This document shows positions 24,115 to 33,487 of a DNA stretch of 43,736 bases, piece after piece; position 1 is the first letter of the stretch, and each line of letters starts with the position of its first letter. The position numbers and the translations under genes are program-made. The stretch is taken from the NCBI RefSeq assembly GCF_028290105.1, contig NZ_JAQGKL010000142.1, positions 1 through 43,736 of the forward strand. Direction: 5' to 3'. The notes beneath the pieces were generated by a model. That model worked only from the letters and a program-made list of their open reading frames with translations, did no database searches and was not told where the DNA came from. Origin of the DNA: Methylobacterium sp. Lineage in GTDB: Bacteria; Pseudomonadota; Alphaproteobacteria; Rhizobiales; Beijerinckiaceae.

Positions 24115-25050
24115 ATGCTCGCGCTCTCACGGTCCCTGCGCTTGGCGAGCGCCGCGGCACTTCTCTGCCTCACGGCATCTACTTCCGGTCAGGCCGAGGC
24201 GCCGGACGCGGATCTCCGAGCCGGGCCCTCCCTGCCGACGGACAAGCCGGTGAGCGGGCAGGTGCGCAAGCAGGTGAGCAAGCAGGTGACCTGGGCGGTC
24301 TACGACGCCGCCCCCTACATGATCACCGACGGCCCGGAGGCCGGGATGGGAATTTCCGACCAGGTCCGGCAGATCCTGACGGAGCGGCTCGACGACTACA
24401 CCCACAGCGTCCTGATCGTTCCGTTTCCGCGCATCGTGAGTTTTCTGAAGCAGGGCGCCGAATGGTGCTTCGTGGGCGGCGTTCGGACTGAAGAGCGTGA
24501 CGCCTTCGCGTATTTCTCACGCCCCACCGGCATGTTCTATCCCCTGCGCATCCTGGTGCGGGCCGACCGGCGCGCGCGCTTCGAGGCGCTGGCGCCCCTG
24601 TCCCTGCGCTCCCTCGTCGAGGAGCATCCGGACCTCCGCACCAGCGTCCTGCGCAGCCGCGCCCTGGCGCCGCGCGTCGACGCGATCCTGCGGCGATCCC
24701 CGGTGCCGCAGGCGCATTCGGAATTCGGCGAGGCGTTCCGGATGCTCCAGAACGACCGGCTCGACTACCTGGTCGAGTTCGCGAACATCGCGGCCTACTA
24801 TGAGAAGTCCTTCGGGCCGTCGGCGTCCTGGGTCGGGCTGCCCATGACGGAGGACCCTGAACCCGTCTTGAGCCGGGTGATGTGCTCGCGCACGCCCTGG
24901 GGACGCGCCATCATCGACCGGATCGACGCGATCCTGCCGGAGGAGCGGGTGACCGACCGGTATCGCCGCATCGTGGAGGCATGGTCGGCGGAGGAAGACC
25001 TCGGCAAGCTCAGGGCCGTCTACGAATCCTCCTTCCTGTCGAGCGAGTAG
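24115..25050 (+). CDS. TIGR02285-like periplasmic sensor/binding protein
   Basis: A 311-residue protein with an N-terminal signal peptide (LASAAALLCLTASTSGQAEA) and a family-3-like solute-binding domain. The segments VTWAVYDAAPYMI, FPRIVSFLKQGAEWCFVGG and RTEERDAFAYFSRPTGMFYPL are those I associate with TIGR02285 proteins, which have no defined ligand. A direct repeat encodes RKQVSKQV. ATG at 24115 is chosen because the signal peptide begins there; its Shine-Dalgarno is poor. The diguanylate cyclase gene starts eight bases after the stop, suggesting this protein passes a periplasmic signal to it. Confidence 0.7.
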   Translation: MLALSRSLRLASAAALLCLTASTSGQAEAPDADLRAGPSLPTDKPVSGQVRKQVSKQVTWAVYDAAPYMITDGPEAGMGISDQVRQILTERLDDYTHSVLIVPFPRIVSFLKQGAEWCFVGGVRTEERDAFAYFSRPTGMFYPLRILVRADRRARFEALAPLSLRSLVEEHPDLRTSVLRSRALAPRVDAILRRSPVPQAHSEFGEAFRMLQNDRLDYLVEFANIAAYYEKSFGPSASWVGLPMTEDPEPVLSRVMCSRTPWGRAIIDRIDAILPEERVTDRYRRIVEAWSAEEDLGKLRAVYESSFLSSE

Positions 25051-25058
25051 CGCCCCGG

Positions 25059-26486
25059 ATGCCGGCTTCACCGTTCCGATCTGGGCTGTTCGCGCGGCGC
25101 AGGCCCTCGGCGCAAGGCGAGAGCGCCGTGCCGAGCCGCGCCCTGGCGACACGCCTGATCCGGGTGATCCTCGGCTGCTACATCGTGGTGGCAGTCACGC
25201 TGACCGGCATCCAGATGGTGATCGAGTATCGGCGCGCCAGCGACCGCCTCAAGGACGAGGTCGCGGCGATGCAGCGGACCTTCAGCCCGGGCCTCGAGGA
25301 TGCCCTCTGGCGCTTCAACGCGGCGGTGCTGAGCGGAATCCTCACCGGAATGAAGGAGATCCCCGTGGTCCTCGGCGTCGAGGTGCGGGACGAGAACGGC
25401 AAGCGCGTCCAGGCACTCGGCACCGTGACGGCTTCCGACGGCCGCGCGTCGCGGGTCGATGTCGAGGGTCGCGAGAGCCCCGTCACCCGGAGTCCGGTCA
25501 CCCAGGGCTTTGGCCGCCCGTTCAGCCAGACCTTCCCGCTCGTCCACACGGAGCGGAACGGCCAGCGCTTCCCGGTCGGTTCCTGGACGATCCATTCGGA
25601 CGACGCCATCGCCATCGATCAGGTGAAGAACACGCTGATCGTGATCCTGATCAATTCGGCGCTGAAGTCCCTGGTGCTCGGGCTCATCTTCTTCGCCGTG
25701 ATCCGTCACATGGTCGGGCGGCCGCTGGCGCAGATCGAGGGCTACCTGGGGCGGCTCGACGCGGACAACCTCGACGCGCCGCCCCTGAGCCTCACGGCCG
25801 GGGGACGCCACGAACTCCACGCGTTGACGGCCTCCCTCAACACCATGGTGCTCCGGCTACGCCGTGCGTTCGAGGACAACGCGCACCTCATGCAGGAACT
25901 GCGCGAGATGAACGCTTCCCTGCAGGAGCGCATCACCGAGCGGACGCGCGACCTCGAACGCCTCGCCCACACCGACCTCCTCACCGGGTTGAACAACCGG
26001 CGCAAGCTCGACCTGGCGCTCGAGCGGGCCGCGTTGCAGGCGTCGAGCGACGGCACGCCGCTCTGCGTGATCGTGGCCGACGTCGACCACTTCAAGGCGA
26101 TCAACGATCTCTACGGCCACAAGGTCGGCGACCGGGTGCTCGTCGCCATCGCGGGGATCCTCGCCGAAGGTGTCCGCACCGGCGACACCCTCGGCCGTTG
26201 GGGCGGCGAGGAATTCCTGATCGTCTGCCCGGGCACCCGCCTCAGCGAGGGCGCGGCCTGCGCCGAGGCCTTGCGTCAGCGCATCGAGGCGACGGCCCTC
26301 CCCCTCATCGGCTCTCGGACCTGCTCCTTCGGCGTCGCGGAACTCAGGCCCGGCGAGACCACCGACGGCCTGGTCACCCGCGCCGATGCCGCGCTCTATC
26401 GCTGCAAGCGCAACGGCCGCAACCACGTCGAGACGCGGGCCATCGCCCAGTCGGACCTGGAAACCTGGGAGCGGGGCGCCGCCTGA
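25059..26486 (+). CDS. Membrane diguanylate cyclase (HAMP-GGDEF)
   Basis: A 475-residue inner-membrane enzyme that makes cyclic di-GMP from two GTP. One membrane segment near residues 35-55 (VILGCYIVVAVTLTGIQMVI), a periplasmic domain of about 150 residues, a second segment near 195-217, then a HAMP-like linker with coiled coil (MQELREMNASLQERITERT). The GGDEF domain begins HTDLLTGLNNRRKLDLALE, with the active-site variant GGEEF near residue 382 and an I-site RTGD five residues before it, so product inhibition is expected. It is cotranscribed with the preceding periplasmic protein (eight-base gap). Confidence 0.93.
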   Translation: MPASPFRSGLFARRRPSAQGESAVPSRALATRLIRVILGCYIVVAVTLTGIQMVIEYRRASDRLKDEVAAMQRTFSPGLEDALWRFNAAVLSGILTGMKEIPVVLGVEVRDENGKRVQALGTVTASDGRASRVDVEGRESPVTRSPVTQGFGRPFSQTFPLVHTERNGQRFPVGSWTIHSDDAIAIDQVKNTLIVILINSALKSLVLGLIFFAVIRHMVGRPLAQIEGYLGRLDADNLDAPPLSLTAGGRHELHALTASLNTMVLRLRRAFEDNAHLMQELREMNASLQERITERTRDLERLAHTDLLTGLNNRRKLDLALERAALQASSDGTPLCVIVADVDHFKAINDLYGHKVGDRVLVAIAGILAEGVRTGDTLGRWGGEEFLIVCPGTRLSEGAACAEALRQRIEATALPLIGSRTCSFGVAELRPGETTDGLVTRADAALYRCKRNGRNHVETRAIAQSDLETWERGAA

Positions 26487-26530
26487 GACCGAGGCACCGT
26501 GCTCGTCGAGCCGAAATCCAGATAAAGTCT

Positions 26531-26550
26531 TGCTTCACAGACTTGAAGCA
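26531..26550 (+). terminator. Weak hairpin after diguanylate cyclase
   Basis: TGCTTCA (26531-26537) and TGAAGCA (26544-26550) form a 7-bp stem with a six-base loop 45 bases past the stop codon. No T run follows, so terminator function is uncertain. It lies in a 240-base gap with no gene. Confidence 0.3.
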
Positions 26551-26729
26551 GAGCTTCGATCTTCCGACGCGGCGATTAACATAGATCAAAGGCAAATTCT
26601 CGAAACAAACAGGTTCGGTCGCGGTTCTCGTGTCAGATCCGCCACTCCGCGACCCTGATGCTTAGGCCAGCCTCGGCGGAAGCGCTGCTGCGTCGTCGGG
26701 GCCGCCCAACCTTCGAGAGATAGCCGCCC

Positions 26730-27188
26730 GTGCCCTCAATCCTGTCTTCGTTGTCTCGCCTCGCCCTCCTCGGCGCCCTGGCCGCCGGCCCGGCGCTCGC
26801 CGTGGAGAAACCCGCGGCTCCGCCTCGGAATGCGGGCATGATGCCACCCGTCTCCCTGACCGTTGAGGAGGCGGACGGCGCGGTCCGATGCGCTCCGGCC
26901 GAGCTGAACCTGCCCGCCGAAAGCAACGTCGAGATCACGATCAACAACACCACCAAGAATCAGGTCACCCTGACCGCGCCCCACCAGTTCGAGAACAAGA
27001 ACGTTCTCCACCACGACGGCGACCTCGTCCATGTGGCGAGCGACGATGGTTACCTGATCAAGGCGAACGGCAAGGGTGTCCTGCGCATCCGCACCATCAA
27101 CGAAGGGCAGTATCCCTATGGCTGCACCTCCGTTTCGAAGCAGAGCAAGCCGTTCGAGGGCAAGCTGACGCTGACCAAGTCGCAGTAG
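26730..27188 (+). CDS. Secreted cupredoxin-like protein
   Basis: A 152-residue exported protein: signal peptide to about residue 24 (GALAAGPALA), then a beta-rich domain with VEITINNTTKNQVTLTAPHQ, FENKNVLHHDGDL and a late cysteine in YPYGCTSVSKQ. The pattern of early His, then Cys near the C-terminus, resembles cupredoxin-like folds, but a full type I copper site is not proven. GTG at 26730 has GAGAG upstream. It lies 50 bases before the SDR gene on the same strand. Confidence 0.6.
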   Translation: MPSILSSLSRLALLGALAAGPALAVEKPAAPPRNAGMMPPVSLTVEEADGAVRCAPAELNLPAESNVEITINNTTKNQVTLTAPHQFENKNVLHHDGDLVHVASDDGYLIKANGKGVLRIRTINEGQYPYGCTSVSKQSKPFEGKLTLTKSQ

Positions 27189-27239
27189 CCGGCACCCCTT
27201 CCGCCTTCGACATTCCCAGATTGGAAGAGGTCCCGCGCA

Positions 27240-28100
27240 ATGACGGATTTTCCGAAGCCACCCTTCGACCGCCAGCGCCGGTTGAACCCGCCCGGTCGCG
27301 ACGCGGAAATGGACCCGCGCCCCGATTACGGCGAGGCGCATTATCGCGGATCAGGGCGACTGACCGGGCGCAAGACCGTGATCACCGGCGCCGACAGCGG
27401 CATCGGTCGCGCCGTCGCCCTGGCCTTCGCCCGTGAAGGGGCCGACGTGCTCATCAGCTATTACGACGAGCACGAGGACGCGACGGAGACCTGCCGCCTC
27501 GTCGAGGAAGCCGGGCGCAAGGCCGTGGCGATGCCGGGCGACATCAAGGACGCGGGCCATTGCCGGGCGATCATCGAGCGGGCGGTGGCCGAGTTCGGGC
27601 AGGTCGATGTGCTGGTCAACAATGCGGCGCACCAGAAGACGTTCGCGAAACCCGAGGACATCTCCGACGAGGAGTGGGAGGTCACCTTCGCCACCAACAT
27701 CCACGCGATGTTCTACCTCGTGAAGGCCGCCCTGCCGCAGATGAAGGCTGGCGCCGCCATCATCAACACCACGTCGGTGAACGCCGACACCCCGAGTCCG
27801 CAATTGTTGGCCTATGCCACCACGAAAGGGGCGATCCAGAACTTCACCGGCGGTCTCGCGCAGGCCCTGGCGGAGCGCGAGATCCGGGTGAACTGCGTCG
27901 CGCCCGGCCCGATCTGGACGCCACTGATCCCCTCGACCATGCCGATGGAGAAGGTGCGGAGCTTCGGCTCGCAGGTGCCGATGCAGCGCCCCGGCCAGCC
28001 CTGTGAACTCGCTCCCGTCTACGTCCTGCTGGCGAGCCCGGAATCGAGCTACGTCTCGGGCGCGACCATCGCGGTGACGGGCGGAAAGCCGATCATCTGA
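27240..28100 (+). CDS. SDR oxidoreductase (YghA-like)
   Basis: A 286-residue NAD(P)-dependent short-chain dehydrogenase with the extended N-terminus of the YghA/general-stress-protein-39 group. Cofactor motif TGADSGIG, then DVLVNNAAHQ, catalytic Ser in NTTSVNADTPS and Tyr/Lys in LAYATTKGA, and RVNCVAPGPIWTPLI. Proteins of this group are often stress-induced aldehyde or ketone reductases. ATG at 27240 has AGAGGT upstream. It stands at the head of the run of small genes at 28-31 kb on the same strand. Confidence 0.93.
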   Translation: MTDFPKPPFDRQRRLNPPGRDAEMDPRPDYGEAHYRGSGRLTGRKTVITGADSGIGRAVALAFAREGADVLISYYDEHEDATETCRLVEEAGRKAVAMPGDIKDAGHCRAIIERAVAEFGQVDVLVNNAAHQKTFAKPEDISDEEWEVTFATNIHAMFYLVKAALPQMKAGAAIINTTSVNADTPSPQLLAYATTKGAIQNFTGGLAQALAEREIRVNCVAPGPIWTPLIPSTMPMEKVRSFGSQVPMQRPGQPCELAPVYVLLASPESSYVSGATIAVTGGKPII

Positions 28101-28136
28101 TCCTCCGATCCTGTGATTTCACGAGGAGAGCACGCG

Positions 28137-28472
28137 ATGGACGACCCCCGCGAGAAACGCACCGAGACGAAGCGCCCGAACCTGCGCGACTTCGATGCCG
28201 ATGCGGACCGGAACGGCCAGGATCTCGGGCAGGACGAGGCCCGCGATGTCGGGCGCCCCGAGATCCTGCGGAAGGCGCTGGAATCGGATCCGAGCTGGCA
28301 GGCCGAGACGGCCAGGGTCGCCTCGGACTTCCAGCGCCTCGACTCGGTCGGCGGCGGCAGCGTCTCGAGCGTCGAGGCGACAGAGGCGGAAACCCCGCCG
28401 GAGAACCTGCGCCACATCTCAGACCCGAGCCCGGCCGCTGCGACCCCAACGCCCCCGAAGAAAGCCCCCTGA
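28137..28472 (+). CDS. Small hydrophilic protein, unknown
   Basis: A 111-residue highly charged protein (MDDPREKRTETKRPNLRDFD at the start), with a central helix-like part (RPEILRKALESDPSWQAETARV) and a proline-rich tail ending PTPPKKAP. GAGGAGAG lies seven bases before ATG 28137, a very strong ribosome site. No cysteine, signal or membrane segment. It follows the SDR gene by 36 bases and is probably in the same transcript. I do not recognise the family. Confidence 0.65.
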   Translation: MDDPREKRTETKRPNLRDFDADADRNGQDLGQDEARDVGRPEILRKALESDPSWQAETARVASDFQRLDSVGGGSVSSVEATEAETPPENLRHISDPSPAAATPTPPKKAP

Positions 28473-28488
28473 CGCGAGGTCGTCCGCG

Positions 28489-28857
28489 ATGATCCCCACC
28501 CGCCGACACGCGCTCGCCGACCACCTGCTGCCGGCGGGCATCGCCGCCCTCTCGTACTCACCCCGGCGCGGGCGAGGCACGCGCCGGATCATGCGGGTCG
28601 GCCCGCTCTGGCACCACGGCTACACGCTGCTCACCCGCCACGAGGGCGGCCTCGTCCCGGCGACCGGCATGCGCACGCACCTCGCCTGCGACGCCCTGGG
28701 TGCCCTGACTTTCGTGGGGGCGGCCCCTCTCCTGCGGGAGGAGCCCGCCCGGGACCGGCTGCTGCTCGCCGCCCTCGGGCTCGGCGAACTCGTCCTCATC
28801 GCCGCGAGCGACCGGCATGCGCCGCGCCCCGACATCATCGATCACCGACGCCGCTGA
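28489..28857 (+). CDS. Small membrane protein, SPW-like pattern
   Basis: A 122-residue protein with hydrophobic stretches near residues 65-83 (HLACDALGALTFVGAAPLL) and 90-105 (LLLAALGLGELVLIAAS). The order IPT...H...D, then YTLLTRHEGG, then MRTHLACDALGA and LGLGELVLIA resembles the small SPW-type membrane proteins found with stress genes, but half of the first hydrophobic repeat is replaced by an Arg-rich segment (SPRRGRGTRRI). ATG at 28489 is 16 bases after the previous stop. Function unknown. Confidence 0.55.
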   Translation: MIPTRRHALADHLLPAGIAALSYSPRRGRGTRRIMRVGPLWHHGYTLLTRHEGGLVPATGMRTHLACDALGALTFVGAAPLLREEPARDRLLLAALGLGELVLIAASDRHAPRPDIIDHRRR

Positions 28858-28869
28858 AAGGAACGCGCC

Positions 28870-29046
28870 ATGGACCGCGAGACCCCGGACCCGCCGGAGA
28901 AACCTGATTCCACGGGCACCAATTCGCGCCCGCGTGACACCACGATCGCGCAGACCGGCGAAGGTATTCCCGACGATTCCGCCTACCCGGTTCAGGTCGA
29001 CGAGGAGGAGGCCAAGCGTATCGAGGAGAAAATTCGCAAGCTATAG
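28870..29046 (+). CDS. Very small acidic protein, unknown
   Basis: A 58-residue protein starting MDRETPDPPEKPDSTGTNS and ending with a charged helix (DEEEAKRIEEKIRKL). AAGGAACG lies just upstream of ATG 28870, only 12 bases after the previous stop. No membrane segment or cysteine. It looks disordered with a helical tail, like its neighbours. I do not recognise it. Confidence 0.6.
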   Translation: MDRETPDPPEKPDSTGTNSRPRDTTIAQTGEGIPDDSAYPVQVDEEEAKRIEEKIRKL

Positions 29047-29138
29047 CCTCCTTCCGACGAACGATCCTGACTTCGGAACAGTCGGACTCCAGTGAGATTG
29101 ACGTACTTGCCACTCCACGACGCTGACAGGAGCCAAGC

Positions 29139-29324
29139 ATGACGGCGAAGCCACCGCCCGTTCCACCGGCCAACCAGTCCGACAAAGGTCCCGGAAGCGC
29201 CACCGACGCGCCACTCGCCACGGGACCGAAGGGATCGAGCCAGACCAAGGATCCCGACAAGATCGGGCAGGCCGGCAATTCCAAGGTGAACACCACCCAC
29301 CAGGGCTATCAGCAGGATCGCTAA
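29139..29324 (+). CDS. Very small Gly/Pro-rich protein, unknown
   Basis: A 61-residue hydrophilic protein (MTAKPPPVPPANQSDKGPG at the start, NTTHQGYQQDR at the end) with no membrane segment. ATG at 29139 follows CAGGAG at seven bases. The TAA stop shares its last A with the next gene's ATG, so translation is coupled. Composition (Lys, Gln, Asn, Gly, Thr, no bulky core) indicates a disordered, hydrophilin-like chain. Confidence 0.65.
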   Translation: MTAKPPPVPPANQSDKGPGSATDAPLATGPKGSSQTKDPDKIGQAGNSKVNTTHQGYQQDR

Positions 29325-29542
29325 TGAGCACCTCGAAGAAGACGCCCGCCGCCGACCGTCACCACGGCGGCCCCGGCAGCAGCCATCAGGACGCCACCAA
29401 ACCGCAGGCGGAGGGTCATCACGGGCCGACCCCCGGCGGCCCCACCAGCGACACGAAATCCCATGTGTCCGGCGGCGGCGGTGAGCGCGACAGCCACCAC
29501 GCGCACGACCCCGCCGGCAAGGCCGCCGACCGTTCGCACTGA
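29324..29542 (+). CDS. Very small His/Gly-rich protein, unknown
   Basis: A 72-residue protein with 11 histidines spread in pairs (DRHHGGPG, EGHHGPTPGGP, SHHAHDP, DRSH) and many Gly, Ser and Asp. Such a composition could bind metal ions or water; there is no signal peptide or membrane span. It begins on TAATG with the previous gene, so the two are coupled. Not a family I know. Confidence 0.65.
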   Translation: MSTSKKTPAADRHHGGPGSSHQDATKPQAEGHHGPTPGGPTSDTKSHVSGGGGERDSHHAHDPAGKAADRSH

Positions 29543-29593
29543 AACGGCAGGTACTGAAACGAAAAGCCCACAGGTCCAGGAGGGAGAGTCAGA

Positions 29594-29914
29594 ATGGCCA
29601 ACGCCGACCGCCACAAGATGGGTGCCGCCACCCAGGGCAAGGGCACCGGGACCGGTGCCATGACGGATCTGCCCGATGGCATCCTCGAAGAGAACATGGT
29701 GCTGAGCAATCGCGACAAGTCCCGTCACAGTGACGAGCGCGGACTCGACAGCAAGATGGTCCAGACCGAGCAGTACCAGGACCACGCCGCCAACCGCGAG
29801 ATCGAACCCGATGCCATCGAGTCCGGCGTGTCGGGCAACACCTCCGGCCTCGCCGGCACGAAGACCAACGTGTCCGGATCCCAGAGCAGCCTCGCCAGCC
29901 AGGACAAAAGCTGA
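29594..29914 (+). CDS. Small hydrophilic protein, unknown
   Basis: A 106-residue hydrophilic protein. The middle (MTDLPDGILEENMVLSNRDK) and (RGLDSKMVQTEQYQDHAANR) reads as a real conserved-type sequence, while both ends are Gly/Ser/Thr-rich. AGGAGGGAGA precedes ATG 29594, one of the strongest ribosome sites in the window, suggesting abundant product. No membrane segment or cysteine. I cannot assign a family. Confidence 0.65.
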   Translation: MANADRHKMGAATQGKGTGTGAMTDLPDGILEENMVLSNRDKSRHSDERGLDSKMVQTEQYQDHAANREIEPDAIESGVSGNTSGLAGTKTNVSGSQSSLASQDKS

Positions 29915-29981
29915 CGCCCGGACGCGCGACGGCGCTCCTCCAGAGTGCCGTCGCTACCGATTCCCATGACAGGATTACCCG

Positions 29982-30140
29982 ATGAAGACCACGGTCCAGA
30001 CCCTGATCAGCGGCCCCAATGGCCTTCGTGGCAACGGTCAGACCGTCGACCGGGTCGATCAACTCAGCAGCGTGGTGCTGCTCGGCCTCGCCGTGACGGG
30101 GGCCGTCGTGGCGCTCGGCTTGCTGGAACTCATTCACTGA
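29982..30140 (+). CDS. Single-span membrane peptide
   Basis: A 52-residue protein: a short N-terminal part (MKTTVQTLISGPNGLRGNG), then one membrane span (LSSVVLLGLAVTGAVVALGL) that ends almost at the C-terminus (LELIH). AGGATT lies about ten bases before ATG 29982. It is 67 bases after the previous small gene. Function unknown. Confidence 0.55.
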   Translation: MKTTVQTLISGPNGLRGNGQTVDRVDQLSSVVLLGLAVTGAVVALGLLELIH

Positions 30141-30190
30141 CGTCCGGCAACGCACCGTTCATCGCCGAGACGTCCCAGGAGACTCCCGAA

Positions 30191-30328
30191 GTGCCGCCCA
30201 TCGACCATAGGCCCAGTCCGGTTCGCACCAACCGTTTCGGTATGATCGCCGCCGCCCTGATGTTCGCGGCTCTGGTGGCTTACGCGATCTACTTCGTGAT
30301 GATCCCCGCGCCGCTACCACCGCAATAG
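30191..30328 (+). CDS. Single-span membrane peptide
   Basis: A 45-residue protein with a short basic-proline N-terminus (MPPIDHRPSPVRTNRFG) and one hydrophobic span (MIAAALMFAALVAYAIYFVM), ending PAPLPPQ. GTG at 30191 has AGGAG about 12 bases upstream; no ATG is better placed. It is about 50 bases after the previous single-span peptide, and the two could form a pair. Function unknown. Confidence 0.5.
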   Translation: MPPIDHRPSPVRTNRFGMIAAALMFAALVAYAIYFVMIPAPLPPQ

Positions 30329-30396
30329 CTCCGAGGCCCCCTCGGCGCTGGCACGCGGACGGACGCACCGCCGCCGCGTGCAGACATGGATGCACC

Positions 30397-30564
30397 CTAT
30401 CCCCCGCCGATCCCGCTCGTGACGGTCCCGGTACCCTGACATTCGGGGCAGGGTTTGGCGTCCACCGTGCCGGTCCCTTGGCAGTTACGACAGAGATTCT
30501 CGCCGGTGCCGGGGGCGCCTGGCGTCGCTTCGTCTCCTGGTTTTGTGGGATCACCGTCTGGCAT
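30397..30564 (-). CDS. 55-residue zinc-ribbon peptide (DnaJ-type CxxCxGxG)
   Basis: A 55-residue protein whose C-terminal half holds CRNCQGTGTV and CPECQGTGTV, two CxxCxGxG units as in the zinc-binding region of DnaJ. Two units can form one four-cysteine zinc site. There is no J domain or other part, so it is a free-standing mini-ribbon. ATG at 30564 follows GGGAGCG. It is the only reverse-strand gene within the small-gene run and has its own stress-type promoter candidate upstream. Confidence 0.7.
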   Translation of the reverse strand: MPDGDPTKPGDEATPGAPGTGENLCRNCQGTGTVDAKPCPECQGTGTVTSGIGGG

Positions 30565-30604
30565 GATTCGCTCCCAAAACATCGATTTGCTTAGGCGAGA
30601 AGCA

Positions 30605-30630
30605 AACCCTTGTACTTGGACGCATGTTCC
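30605..30630 (-). promoter_or_regulatory. EcfG-type promoter candidate (zinc-ribbon peptide)
   Basis: Reverse strand: GGAAC (30630-30626), 17 bases, GGTT (30608-30605), then about 40 bases to the ATG of the zinc-ribbon peptide. It matches the GGAAC-N16/17-(C)GTT pattern of the general stress sigma factor EcfG except for the first -10 base. Confidence 0.5.
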
Positions 30631-30700
30631 TCGTATGATTTTACGATGAATAGTCTCTCCGTATGATTCAGGACCGTGTCGTATCAGGACAGATGGCTTC

Positions 30701-30725
30701 GGAACGTGGCCCCATTCCTCCGGTT
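30701..30725 (+). promoter_or_regulatory. EcfG-type promoter candidate (secreted peptide)
   Basis: Forward strand: GGAAC (30701-30705), 16 bases, GGTT (30722-30725), with the ATG of the secreted 92-residue protein 33 bases downstream. It forms a divergent pair with the similar site at 30605-30630, which makes a chance match less likely than for a lone site. Confidence 0.5.
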
Positions 30726-30758
30726 CTCTCCGTATACCCATACAATACGGAGATCACC

Positions 30759-31037
30759 ATGAAGCACGTCCAACCCTTGATCGCGTCCGCATTCCTCCTC
30801 GGAGCCATGGGACTCTCGGCTTCCGCGCAGACGGGACTGTTTCCCGAGGGGCGCTCGCGGGGCGATACCGTCGTGCAGAACCAGCCGAACACCACCGGCA
30901 ACGACCGGGACGTCATCATCGCCCGCGGCGCCACCGGAGCCGATACGATCACCACGGATTCCGCCGCCGGCGGTAACGCCAACCTGCCGGAGCGTGCGGT
31001 CCCGAACGGCAGTGCCGGCGGCGGCTCCAGCCGCTAA
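30759..31037 (+). CDS. Small secreted protein, unknown
   Basis: A 92-residue exported protein: signal peptide to about residue 23 (IASAFLLGAMGLSASAQ), then a low-complexity mature part rich in Gly, Asn, Thr and Asp (QNQPNTTGNDRDVIIARGAT) with no cysteine. CGGAGA lies eight bases before ATG 30759. The stress-type promoter candidate at 30701-30725 should drive it, and a 10-bp hairpin follows the stop. Function unknown. Confidence 0.65.
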   Translation: MKHVQPLIASAFLLGAMGLSASAQTGLFPEGRSRGDTVVQNQPNTTGNDRDVIIARGATGADTITTDSAAGGNANLPERAVPNGSAGGGSSR

Positions 31038-31053
31038 CCCTTCACCGGACGTG

Positions 31054-31077
31054 CCGGGCTGCGTCACCGCAGCCCGG
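31054..31077 (+). terminator. Hairpin after secreted peptide gene
   Basis: CCGGGCTGCG (31054-31063) and CGCAGCCCGG (31068-31077) form a perfect 10-bp stem with loop TCAC, 17 bases past the stop codon. No T run follows, but stem strength and position fit a transcript end. Confidence 0.6.
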
Positions 31078-31143
31078 TCGCCGCAGAGCGCGAACAGTCC
31101 CGAACCTGACGCGTTGGCCCTCGACAACGACGCGGAGGCTTCC

Positions 31144-31503
31144 ATGGCAATGCAATCCGAAACCCCACCGGCGCCCGGCAATCTCGCCGTCGAGACACCA
31201 CCAGATTCCGACAAGCCCACCACAGCGATGCTGAAGGCGGACATCGACAGCGGGCGCACCGGAGACAAGATTTCCCACTACGACGTTGGCCTGTCGCAGC
31301 TCGGCACGGACGACGAGGCCGCCGGCAACGCCCCCTCGCACGAGCGCATCGCGCTGGCGCGCAAGACGGAAGCGGCTTCGCCCCGGGTTCGCAAATCCTC
31401 GAAGCCCGAAGGCCACAACACCTGGATCATGCCGTTGTTCATCGGCTTTGCCGCCATGGTGCCGGTGGTGGTCGGCGTTTCCCTTTTCGTGTTCAACCGG
31501 TAG
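31144..31503 (+). CDS. C-terminally anchored small membrane protein
   Basis: A 119-residue protein: about 85 hydrophilic residues (AMLKADIDSGRTGDKISHYD, then LSQLGTDDEAAGNAPSHERI), a basic KSSKPEGHNTW junction, and one C-terminal membrane span (IMPLFIGFAAMVPVVVGVSL). The cytoplasmic part would be tail-anchored in the inner membrane. GCGGAGG lies nine bases before ATG 31144. It is the last of the small-gene run. The family is not one I recognise. Confidence 0.65.
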   Translation: MAMQSETPPAPGNLAVETPPDSDKPTTAMLKADIDSGRTGDKISHYDVGLSQLGTDDEAAGNAPSHERIALARKTEAASPRVRKSSKPEGHNTWIMPLFIGFAAMVPVVVGVSLFVFNR

Positions 31504-31566
31504 TCCCGCGAACGCCTGGGCCAGTCTCGCGCGACCCAGGTACTCGGGATTCAGGTGGCTCGGGGC

Positions 31567-32436
31567 TCAGTTGGCTCGGGCGCGGCGGCGCGTGATTTCG
31601 GCCAGGGCGGCGAGATCCTTGTCGGCATCGCCCTGCGCGATCGCCTCTGCGAGATTGTCGCGCAGCACGTCGGCGAACGGCATCGGCACTCCGGCGGCAC
31701 CCGCCGCGGCGAGGGCCAGCCCGATATCCTTGGCCCCGAGCTTGAGGTTGAAGCCCGGGGGCTCGTAGCGCTGGGCCGCGATCAGGGCACCGTAGTTCTT
31801 GTAGACCGGCGAGGCGAACAGCGTGTTGGTGAGAAGGTCGAGGAGATCGGCTCCGGTCACGCCGTACCCTTCGGCCAAAGCCGCTGCCTCGCCCATCGCT
31901 TCGATCGCCGAGACCAGCATGAAGTTCCCCGCCAGCTTGACCGCGTTGGCTCGGTGCGGCTCATGCCCGAACTCCCAGGTCTTGGCTCCCATGGCGTCGA
32001 AAAGCGGTTTTGCGCGCGCGACGGCCTGTGGATCACCCGCCGCCACGATGTTGAGGGCGCCTTTCTCGGCGACGTCCGGCCGCCCGAAGACCGGAGCGGC
32101 GATGTAGGGCACCCCTGCGCGAGCGTGGATCGCCGCCAGATCCTGCGCCAACGCCACCGAGATCGTGCTCATCGAGAGGTGCAGGCCCGGCGGGTTCCCG
32201 CCATCGAGAAGACCGCCTTCCACGATCACCGCGCGCAGGCCCGCGTCGTCGGCCAGCATGGTGATGGCCGCATCCCCGGCAAAGGCCTCGGCGGCTTCGG
32301 ACACCGGCGTCACACCCGTAAGCCCCTCGGCCGCCCCCGGCGATCGGTTCCAGACCCGCACATGGTGCCCGGCCCGCACCAGGCTCGCCGCCATGCCGCG
32401 TCCCATCCGGCCGAGGCCGATCAATCCGACGTCCAT
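31567..32436 (-). CDS. NAD(P)-dependent beta-hydroxyacid dehydrogenase
   Basis: A 289-residue cytosolic enzyme of the 3-hydroxyisobutyrate dehydrogenase family, which oxidises small beta-hydroxyacids or reduces succinic-semialdehyde-like substrates. Motifs: GLIGLGRMGRGMA (nucleotide-binding), the substrate-site segment IAAPVFGRPDVAEKGAL, and the catalytic lysine in NAVKLAGNF. ATG at 32436 follows GGGAGA. It lies 31 bases downstream of the alpha/beta hydrolase gene on the same strand, so the two are probably cotranscribed. Confidence 0.88.
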   Translation of the reverse strand: MDVGLIGLGRMGRGMAASLVRAGHHVRVWNRSPGAAEGLTGVTPVSEAAEAFAGDAAITMLADDAGLRAVIVEGGLLDGGNPPGLHLSMSTISVALAQDLAAIHARAGVPYIAAPVFGRPDVAEKGALNIVAAGDPQAVARAKPLFDAMGAKTWEFGHEPHRANAVKLAGNFMLVSAIEAMGEAAALAEGYGVTGADLLDLLTNTLFASPVYKNYGALIAAQRYEPPGFNLKLGAKDIGLALAAAGAAGVPMPFADVLRDNLAEAIAQGDADKDLAALAEITRRRARAN

Positions 32437-32467
32437 CTTTCGTCTCCCTACGCTGTGGTGCCGTGGT

Positions 32468-33487
32468 TCAATGGCGGTTAAGGAAGTCAAGCATCAGCCC
32501 GTTGAAGCGGTCGGTCGCCTCCATGTGGACGAGGTGGCCGATGCCGGGCAGCACCTCGGCGCGGGCGTTCGGCATCTGGCCGGCGAGGGTCCGCGCATGC
32601 TCGGCGTTCCGGCCCATGCCGGCGCGCAGGCCTTCGGGCGCGAAGGGCTTGCCGGGGGCGTTGTGGTCGTTCTCGCCCATGACGAAGAGGGTCGGAGCCT
32701 GGATCAGCGGGATCTCGTGCACGACCGGCTGCCCCCAGATGGCCTGGTAGGAATTGACGAAGGACTGGAGCCAGCGCGGGTACTCGCCCGACCCCTTCAC
32801 GCGCTCCCGCAGCGACACGAAGGGCTCGATGGCCGAGGCCGGCAGAGACAGGGCGTAGTTCGTCATCAGCTGCTGGCGATAGGATTCCGCCGTGGAATTT
32901 CCTTCTAGGCGCAGCAGGGTGGCGTTCGAGACCGGCGGCACCGCGAAGCGGTAATCCTCCAGGCCGATGGGCGCTTCGAGGACGAGGCTGTTGACGCGGG
33001 CCGGCGCGTTGCGCGTAAGCCGCACCGCCAGCATGCCACCCATGGAATGGGCCACCACATCGACGCGCGGCAGGCCGAGAGAGTCGAGGAGGGCCACGGT
33101 GTCGGCCGCCATGGTGTCGAAGCTGTACGGCCCCACCGGCTTGGCCGACTTGCCGAATCCGAGCTGGTCGGGCGCCACCACGCGGTACCCGGCGCGGGCG
33201 AGCGCCTGGATCACGGGTTGCCAATAGCTCGCCGGGAAATTGCGCCCGTGCAGCAGCAGAGCGGTGCGGCCGTTGGCCGAGCCCTCCGCCGGCACGTCCA
33301 TGTAGGCGAGGCGCTGGCCCTCGCCGTCGCGCGTCAGGTCGAGGAAGCGCACCGGATAGGGGTAGGCGAAGCCCTCCAGGCCGATGCCGAGCGGTCCGGT
33401 ATCGTCGGACGCCGCCGCGGCGGGCAACGGCGTCAGGCAGAGTTGGGCCGCCAGCATCGCGGCGGAGATTTTGACGAACGCGTCCAT
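32468..33487 (-). CDS. Secreted alpha/beta hydrolase
   Basis: A 339-residue exported hydrolase: signal peptide to about residue 26 (MLAAQLCLTPLPAAAA), then the fold with LLLHGRNFPASYW (oxyanion region), PDQLGFGKSAKP, nucleophile Ser in VVAHSMGGMLA, acid Asp in VMGENDHNAPG and catalytic His in LPGIGHLVHME. Substrate unknown; esters or lactones are possible. ATG at 33487 follows AGGAA. It is divergent from the MFS gene and leads into the dehydrogenase gene. Confidence 0.88.
   Translation of the reverse strand: MDAFVKISAAMLAAQLCLTPLPAAAASDDTGPLGIGLEGFAYPYPVRFLDLTRDGEGQRLAYMDVPAEGSANGRTALLLHGRNFPASYWQPVIQALARAGYRVVAPDQLGFGKSAKPVGPYSFDTMAADTVALLDSLGLPRVDVVAHSMGGMLAVRLTRNAPARVNSLVLEAPIGLEDYRFAVPPVSNATLLRLEGNSTAESYRQQLMTNYALSLPASAIEPFVSLRERVKGSGEYPRWLQSFVNSYQAIWGQPVVHEIPLIQAPTLFVMGENDHNAPGKPFAPEGLRAGMGRNAEHARTLAGQMPNARAEVLPGIGHLVHMEATDRFNGLMLDFLNRH

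Follow-up and report, generated by a model that had tools for sequence, protein, structure and literature searches.

Among the systems closest to the locus described here is the PhyR-NepR-sigma-EcfG regulon of Methylobacterium extorquens AM1, for which the accessible part of PMC4814048 gives the promoter consensus GAAC-N16,17-C/GGTT. The KGG-family gene SEN1538 of Salmonella is likewise under a general stress sigma factor and can matter for heat survival (PMC7161692, accessible part). Little is settled about which gene products lie behind multi-stress resistance in alphaproteobacteria, since many genes of the regulon have no known function; in Sinorhizobium meliloti, overexpression of RpoE2 raised 202 protein-coding genes, of which 150 were without predicted function, according to the accessible part of PMC3616915. 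Here we analyze a run of eleven small genes, g1 to g11, at positions 28137–31503 of a 43,736-nucleotide stretch of Methylobacterium sp. DNA (NZ_JAQGKL010000142.1). This stretch, hereafter the window, is the entire contig (C41) of a 4.16 Mb genome in 316 contigs.

We consider it rather probable that these genes form a modular set under sigma-EcfG control, with a core, g4-g5-g6, encoding hydrophilic, largely disordered protectants against drying, salt and heat. Like the AM1 regulon, the locus has the promoter consensus and its spacing near g9, g10 and g11, and the host genome has NepR genes (five matches, three above the cut-off, one of these only with in-frame neighbors). The regulon has been mapped in AM1; here we infer regulation from sequence, as we do co-transcription, accumulation and protection. 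The likeness to the KGG family lies in the predicted control by a general stress sigma factor; in contrast to that family, g1–g11 have no KGG match by Pfam, the model being unlisted for g1–g10 (E up to 1) and for g11 (E 0.01). The set is compact and conserved, has candidate promoters and occurs, on chromosomes and on plasmids, among relatives of leaf isolates and rhizobia. Since it can be removed or transferred as one piece, the question of multi-stress resistance becomes directly testable.

Eleven small genes under purifying selection

The eleven frames have 45–122 codons and together occupy 2712 of 3367 bases, ∼80% of the DNA. We compared them by NG86 ratios of nonsynonymous to synonymous substitution (dN/dS) with orthologs in genomes G015, G055, G056 and G057, and additionally G074 for g11, using two to four relatives per gene (two for g2 and g8, three for g7). 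We also mapped, by tblastn, 20 loci chosen among the best DNA matches; counts over these 20 loci are not a fair sample. The genes, preceded by their left neighbor, a short-chain dehydrogenase/reductase (SDR) gene, are as follows (aa, amino acids).

27240–28100, plus strand: SDR oxidoreductase (Pfam adh_short_C2, 7e-60), left partner of g1 in several species, adjoining it in 7 of the 20 mapped loci (L039, L041, L051, L052, L053, L055, L056); dN/dS 0.11 in the same comparison
28137–28472, plus strand: g1, 111 aa, acidic and hydrophilic; dN/dS 0.26–0.49, four relatives
28489–28857, plus strand: g2, 122 aa, helical, possibly a membrane protein; dN/dS 0.32–0.37, two relatives
28870–29046, plus strand: g3, 58 aa, acidic and hydrophilic; dN/dS 0.20–0.30, and alignment
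29139–29324, plus strand: g4, 61 aa, Gly/Pro/Gln-rich, of disorder-prone composition, module core; dN/dS 0.08–0.28
29324–29542, plus strand: g5, 72 aa, Gly/His-rich, overlapping g4 by one base, module core; dN/dS 0.18–0.21, and alignment
29594–29914, plus strand: g6, 106 aa, with a conserved N-terminal part and an invariant VLSNRDK, module core; dN/dS 0.10–0.22, and alignments
29982–30140, plus strand: g7, 52 aa, predicted single-span membrane peptide, the weakest case; dN/dS 0.21, 0.41 and 0.68; in 3 of the 20 loci
30191–30328, plus strand: g8, 45 aa, GTG start, predicted single-span membrane peptide; dN/dS 0.14 and 0.35, and alignment
30397–30564, minus strand: g9, 55 aa, two CxxCxGxG motifs (half a DnaJ zinc center); dN/dS 0.07–0.11
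30759–31037, plus strand: g10, 92 aa, probably exported, with a signal-like N terminus; dN/dS 0.22–0.32
31144–31503, plus strand: g11, 119 aa, hydrophilic, with a C-terminal hydrophobic span; dN/dS 0.10–0.17, and alignment

Purifying selection is evident at every small gene (dN/dS 0.07–0.49), weakly at g7 (up to 0.68), and in almost every comparison substitutions collect at the third codon position. Since same-frame orthologs occur in other species and show this excess at position 3, the frames are not chance, and we conclude from the comparison that they are real genes. The single doubtful one is g7, which against locus L041 has substitutions spread flat over the codon positions (17, 17 and 18). 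No small protein from g1 to g11 reached a curated Pfam or NCBIfam cut-off. The preliminary description of about eleven tiny, mostly unrecognized genes, which a lack of conserved frames with synonymous bias would have refuted, is thus borne out. Its claim of strong ribosome sites and coupled starts holds in part: purine-rich sites precede most starts, as judged by eye, and g4 and g5 overlap (TAATG), but the other genes lie apart, by 16 bp (g1-g2), 12 bp (g2-g3) or 50–194 bp.

Candidate sigma-EcfG promoters

Four candidate sites stand before the g4-g5-g6 unit and before g9, g10 and g11:

29075–29099, plus strand: candidate g4-g5-g6 promoter, GGAAC-N16-GATT, near-consensus with one −10 mismatch
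30605–30630, minus strand: candidate g9 promoter, GGAAC-N17-GGTT, exact in the window
30701–30725, plus strand: candidate g10 promoter, GGAAC-N16-GGTT, exact in the window and in 4 of 4 relatives
31092–31115, plus strand: candidate g11 promoter, GAAC-N16-CGTT, exact at −52 to −63 in the window and in 5 of 5 close relatives

The matches at g9, g10 and g11 are exact, have the fitting orientation and lie 52–65 bp upstream of each gene. Upstream regions of the g4 unit (n = 10) comprise four with an exact site and six with one mismatch, the window among the latter. In wider sets, a site of the AM1 form lies within 150 bp of 13 of 29 g4 copies, 11 of 68 g6 copies, 4 of 4 g10 copies, 4 of 8 g11 copies and 1 of 3 g9 copies. 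These counts depend on the spacer: for g4, N16 gives 12 of 29 copies, N17 one, and every other spacer from 10 to 24 at most one, and for g6, N16 gives 11 of 68 and other spacers at most one. Across 46 g4/g6 loci outside the genus (656 kb) there are 88 GGAAC-N16-[CG]GTT sites against a control-spacer mean of 8.5 (maximum 19), and 36 Methylobacterium g4/g6 loci have 24 (N16) and 29 (N17) against a mean of 6.3 (maximum 15). Near g4/g6 the N16 motif is therefore ∼10 times the control mean outside the genus and ∼4 times inside it.

The window itself contains nine consensus matches, four within the 3.45 kb island, of which one reads the g10 site in antisense; with 15 control spacers there were 25 matches, one of them in the island. 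A position-blind count over the window was at chance (1 found, 0.99 expected; looser form, 6 and 8.2), and only position, spacer and conservation make informative promoter tests. Over 12 whole genomes the density is ∼21 per Mb (1511 sites in ∼72 Mb), against ∼134 per Mb in the outside-genus loci, two sets that overlap only partly; a 13-base-spacer control gave 1059 sites in the same genomes. Taken together, the sites make sigma-EcfG control likely for g9, g10 and g11 and probable for g4-g6.

The g4-g5-g6 module beyond the genus

In a sample of 249 order genomes that includes members of the genus, g6 was found in 23, g4 in 17 and g5 in 13; among 240 genomes of the class, the host genome included, g6 was found in 5. 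By hand count, g4 and g5 are adjacent in 10 of the 12 order genomes with both, and apart in G165 and G202. At ten loci outside the genus all three genes stand together on one strand. The order is g4-g5-g6 in five (L089, L091, L092, L093, L094; families f36 and f50 of the same order) and g6-g4-g5 in the other five: Rhizobium sp. NFR03 (L143), a Rubellimicrobium metagenome-assembled genome (MAG) of the Rhodobacterales (L152), R. leguminosarum WSM1325 (L176), R. etli CIAT 652 (L178) and R. etli CFN 42 (L186). On this evidence the linkage holds across families and in one further order.

Carriers of the triad include R. etli and R. leguminosarum plasmids, and on S. meliloti pSymB g4-g5 lies 88 bp downstream of an exact promoter. 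In Rhizobium sp. NFR03, g9 is convergent to the triad, as in the window. On p42f of R. etli CFN 42 (L186, 5106–12503), g6-g4-g5 lies directly downstream of treZ-malQ. Where the plasmid records annotate these genes, it is as hypothetical protein or hypothetical conserved protein; the accessible parts of the R. etli papers do not name the p42f genes, and among the matches listed (titles and abstracts) we found no publication on these proteins in the open-access literature. In distant carriers the neighboring genes encode, among others, a PLD-family protein, an endonuclease/phosphatase, DUF3008 and an HWE histidine kinase, and many other genomes with g6 had no member of the other tested small families next to it.

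Two plasmid loci have further features. Seven more small genes annotated as hypothetical follow g6-g4-g5 in L186. L176 (pR132503) has twelve GAAC-N16,17-[CG]GTT sites in 14 kb, some being two readings of one palindrome, and also holds g6-g4-g5, a g11 relative, a different SDR gene and a DUF4267 gene.

Predicted products

The limits set for hydrophilins are a Gly content of at least 8% and a mean hydropathy of at most −1. Both g4 (Gly 11.5%, hydropathy −1.27) and g5 (16.7%, −1.48) lie within them, and these two share with hydrophilins and LEA-like proteins, as commonly defined, a Gly-rich, strongly hydrophilic and disorder-prone composition. A g4 alignment of 15 rows has a mean column identity of 87%. 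The AlphaFold2 (AF2) model of g6, which has no sequence match in the PDB, has a predicted local distance difference test score (pLDDT) of 58, with a main helix at residues 39–48 over the invariant VLSNRDK core and one turn at 64–67; g6 is thus predicted to be largely disordered. For g2 the AF2 model shows four long helices, with low confidence (pLDDT 57). Inspection by eye shows a single strongly hydrophobic span in each of g7, g8 and g11 and a signal-like N terminus in g10.

The central zinc domain of DnaJ contains four CxxCxGxG motifs. With this domain, anti-TRAP and the redox chaperone Ruc (PMC7448276, accessible part), g9 shares four cysteines in two CxxC pairs between flexible flanks. The likeness to Ruc is one of motif layout. 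In contrast to DnaJ, g9 has only two CxxCxGxG motifs and no J domain, and its anti-TRAP/DnaJ matches stay under the cut-offs (Pfam 22.1 versus 32.7 and 21.4 versus 32; NCBIfam RtpA 32.7 versus 65).

Gene order within Methylobacterium

SDR and g1–g11 occur in identical order in G015 and G056. G055 is without an intact SDR, g2 and g8, and G057 is without an intact SDR, g2, g8 and g7. Elsewhere partial sets are found, such as SDR-g1-g2, g4-g5, or g4-g6 divergent from SDR-g1. Presence over the 20 loci falls from g4 (14), g6 (12), g1 (11), g5 (10), g2 (8), g3 (7) and g11 (7) to g10 (5), g9 (4), g7 (3) and g8 (3). In a genus sample of 110 genomes, g4 was found in 62, g6 in 78 and g11 in 86, and 108 of 111 genus genomes, the host genome counted, had a match to some of this DNA.

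Conservation of gene order, which the preliminary description proposed as a check, is complete in two relatives, with parts missing or scattered in the others. Of the suggested stress-protection island, stress control is suggested for g9, g10 and g11, with exact promoters, and for g4-g5-g6, with a near-exact one, but not for SDR, g1, g3, g7 and g8, and protection by the products is conjectural. That the whole run is one undescribed system is not supported: SDR, g1, g3, g7 and g8 are without such a promoter, gene content varies and the parts are often separate.

A probable modular stress-response set and its alternatives

In the mechanism we propose, stress would act through the PhyR/NepR switch to free sigma-EcfG, which would read short units: g4-g5-g6 (perhaps into g7-g8), g9, g10 and g11. 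The small, very hydrophilic and largely disordered g4-g5-g6 products would build up in the cell and protect its proteins or other contents in drying, salt or heat; this protective, hydrophilin-like role of the core is our best guess. The small zinc-ribbon protein predicted for g9 may act on unfolded protein, g10 would be an exported peptide, and g7, g8 and g11 would be membrane-anchored peptides.

In favor of this account we count the purifying selection, the promoter matches with their preferred spacer and their enrichment near g4/g6, the linkage of the triad outside the genus, its position beside treZ-malQ in R. etli CFN 42, the composition of g4 and g5, the predicted disorder of g6 and the NepR matches. 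Several results weigh against it. In composition, g6 falls narrowly outside the hydrophilin limits (Gly 11.3%, hydropathy −0.93), the remaining eight small proteins also fail them, and g4-g6 are conserved in sequence beyond what a composition-only protectant needs. In linkage, g4 and g6 lie within 2 kb of each other in just 22 of the 60 genus genomes having both (hand count). In the promoters, no sigma-EcfG site was found within 140 bp upstream of SDR, g1, g3, g7 or g8, nor directly upstream of g6, in the window and compared relatives; in the window and its close relatives the g4 site reads GATT, not [CG]GTT; and just two of the four genomes compared have an exact g9 site (window and L039), which has one mismatch in L041 and is absent from L040. 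Most copies are without an exact site within 150 bp (16 of 29 for g4, 57 of 68 for g6), and the 4 of 8 g11 copies with GAAC fall to 0 of 8 with the stricter GGAAC. Permuted motifs reached maxima of 10 of 29 (g4) and 9 of 68 (g6); these matches were mostly shifted readings of real sites, and with them removed g4 had a maximum of 3 (mean 0.37) and g6 one of 6 (mean 0.49). A single motif match means little, because the 1511 genome-wide matches hardly exceed the 1314 of the reversed pattern, which scored higher in 5 of the 12 genomes.

The run could instead be a hot spot of insertion where small accessory genes without relation to each other have collected, some stress-regulated by chance and with no further common job, which we regard as unlikely but worth weighing. 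The distance from a GGDEF gene to g11, ∼4.7 kb in the window versus ∼160 bp in G074 (L057), where the island is missing, speaks for such a site, as do the differing gene content of relatives, the modules found elsewhere and the promoters missing at SDR, g1, g3, g7 and g8. Against it stand the tight linkage of g4-g5-g6 on one strand in ten loci spanning f36, f50, Rhizobium and a Rubellimicrobium MAG of another order, the convergent placement of g9 and the triad in the window as well as in Rhizobium sp. NFR03, and the recurrence of stress-type promoters. The triad might also form a stress machine of three proteins, so far undescribed, in alphaproteobacteria, chromosomal and plasmid-borne: its short, disordered products, produced jointly in a sigma-EcfG response, would assemble through their invariant motifs on one cellular target with g9 as zinc-ribbon partner, rather than act as generic protectants. 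This seems to us distinctly unlikely.

More doubtful still is a specific complex in which the invariant motifs of g4, g5 and g6 bind each other or one partner (ribosome, RNA polymerase or chaperone) under stress. Near-invariance of the motifs over great distance, the short helix predicted over the g6 core, and the position of g4 immediately before g5 in 14 of 14 loci listed with both would suit it; the absence of a PDB sequence match for g6, its low predicted order, the separation of g4 and g5 in G165 and G202 and the many genomes with g6 without g4 would not. Runs of tiny genes are common in phage and defence clusters, and some PHROGs and PADLOC models match g9 weakly. These matches span the CxxC region, which probably causes them, and the other ten small proteins have no PHROGs or PADLOC match at E up to 0.01, so a phage-derived or anti-phage origin is very improbable and we rejected it. 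The modular sigma-EcfG-controlled set is the reading we retain.

Flanks and further observations

Judged by g6, the named relatives closest to the host genome are Methylobacterium sp. Leaf104, Leaf117, Leaf125 and Leaf91. To the left of the island lie a cupredoxin-like gene (slightly below the Pfam cut-off) and then SDR; to the right is a minus-strand GarR-like dehydrogenase (Pfam). Rfam listed no RNA in 26000–33000, and sigma-70-like and terminator scans gave no more than chance level. A variable site lies between the GGDEF gene and g11, from 24882–26486 to 31144 of the window; the GGDEF gene was not found in L039 and L041. Upstream of g1, C-terminal SDR remnants occur in L040, L042 (by eye) and L054, the gene being otherwise missing. 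By eye, short words resembling CCTGTGATC recur in the SDR-g1 interval of relatives (e.g., upstream of L042:4202). For the conserved part of g10 (30868–31034), DNA 79% and 70% identical lies at G000:C74 and G000:C187 of the same genome; because of these two further places, g10 may belong to a small family within the genome.

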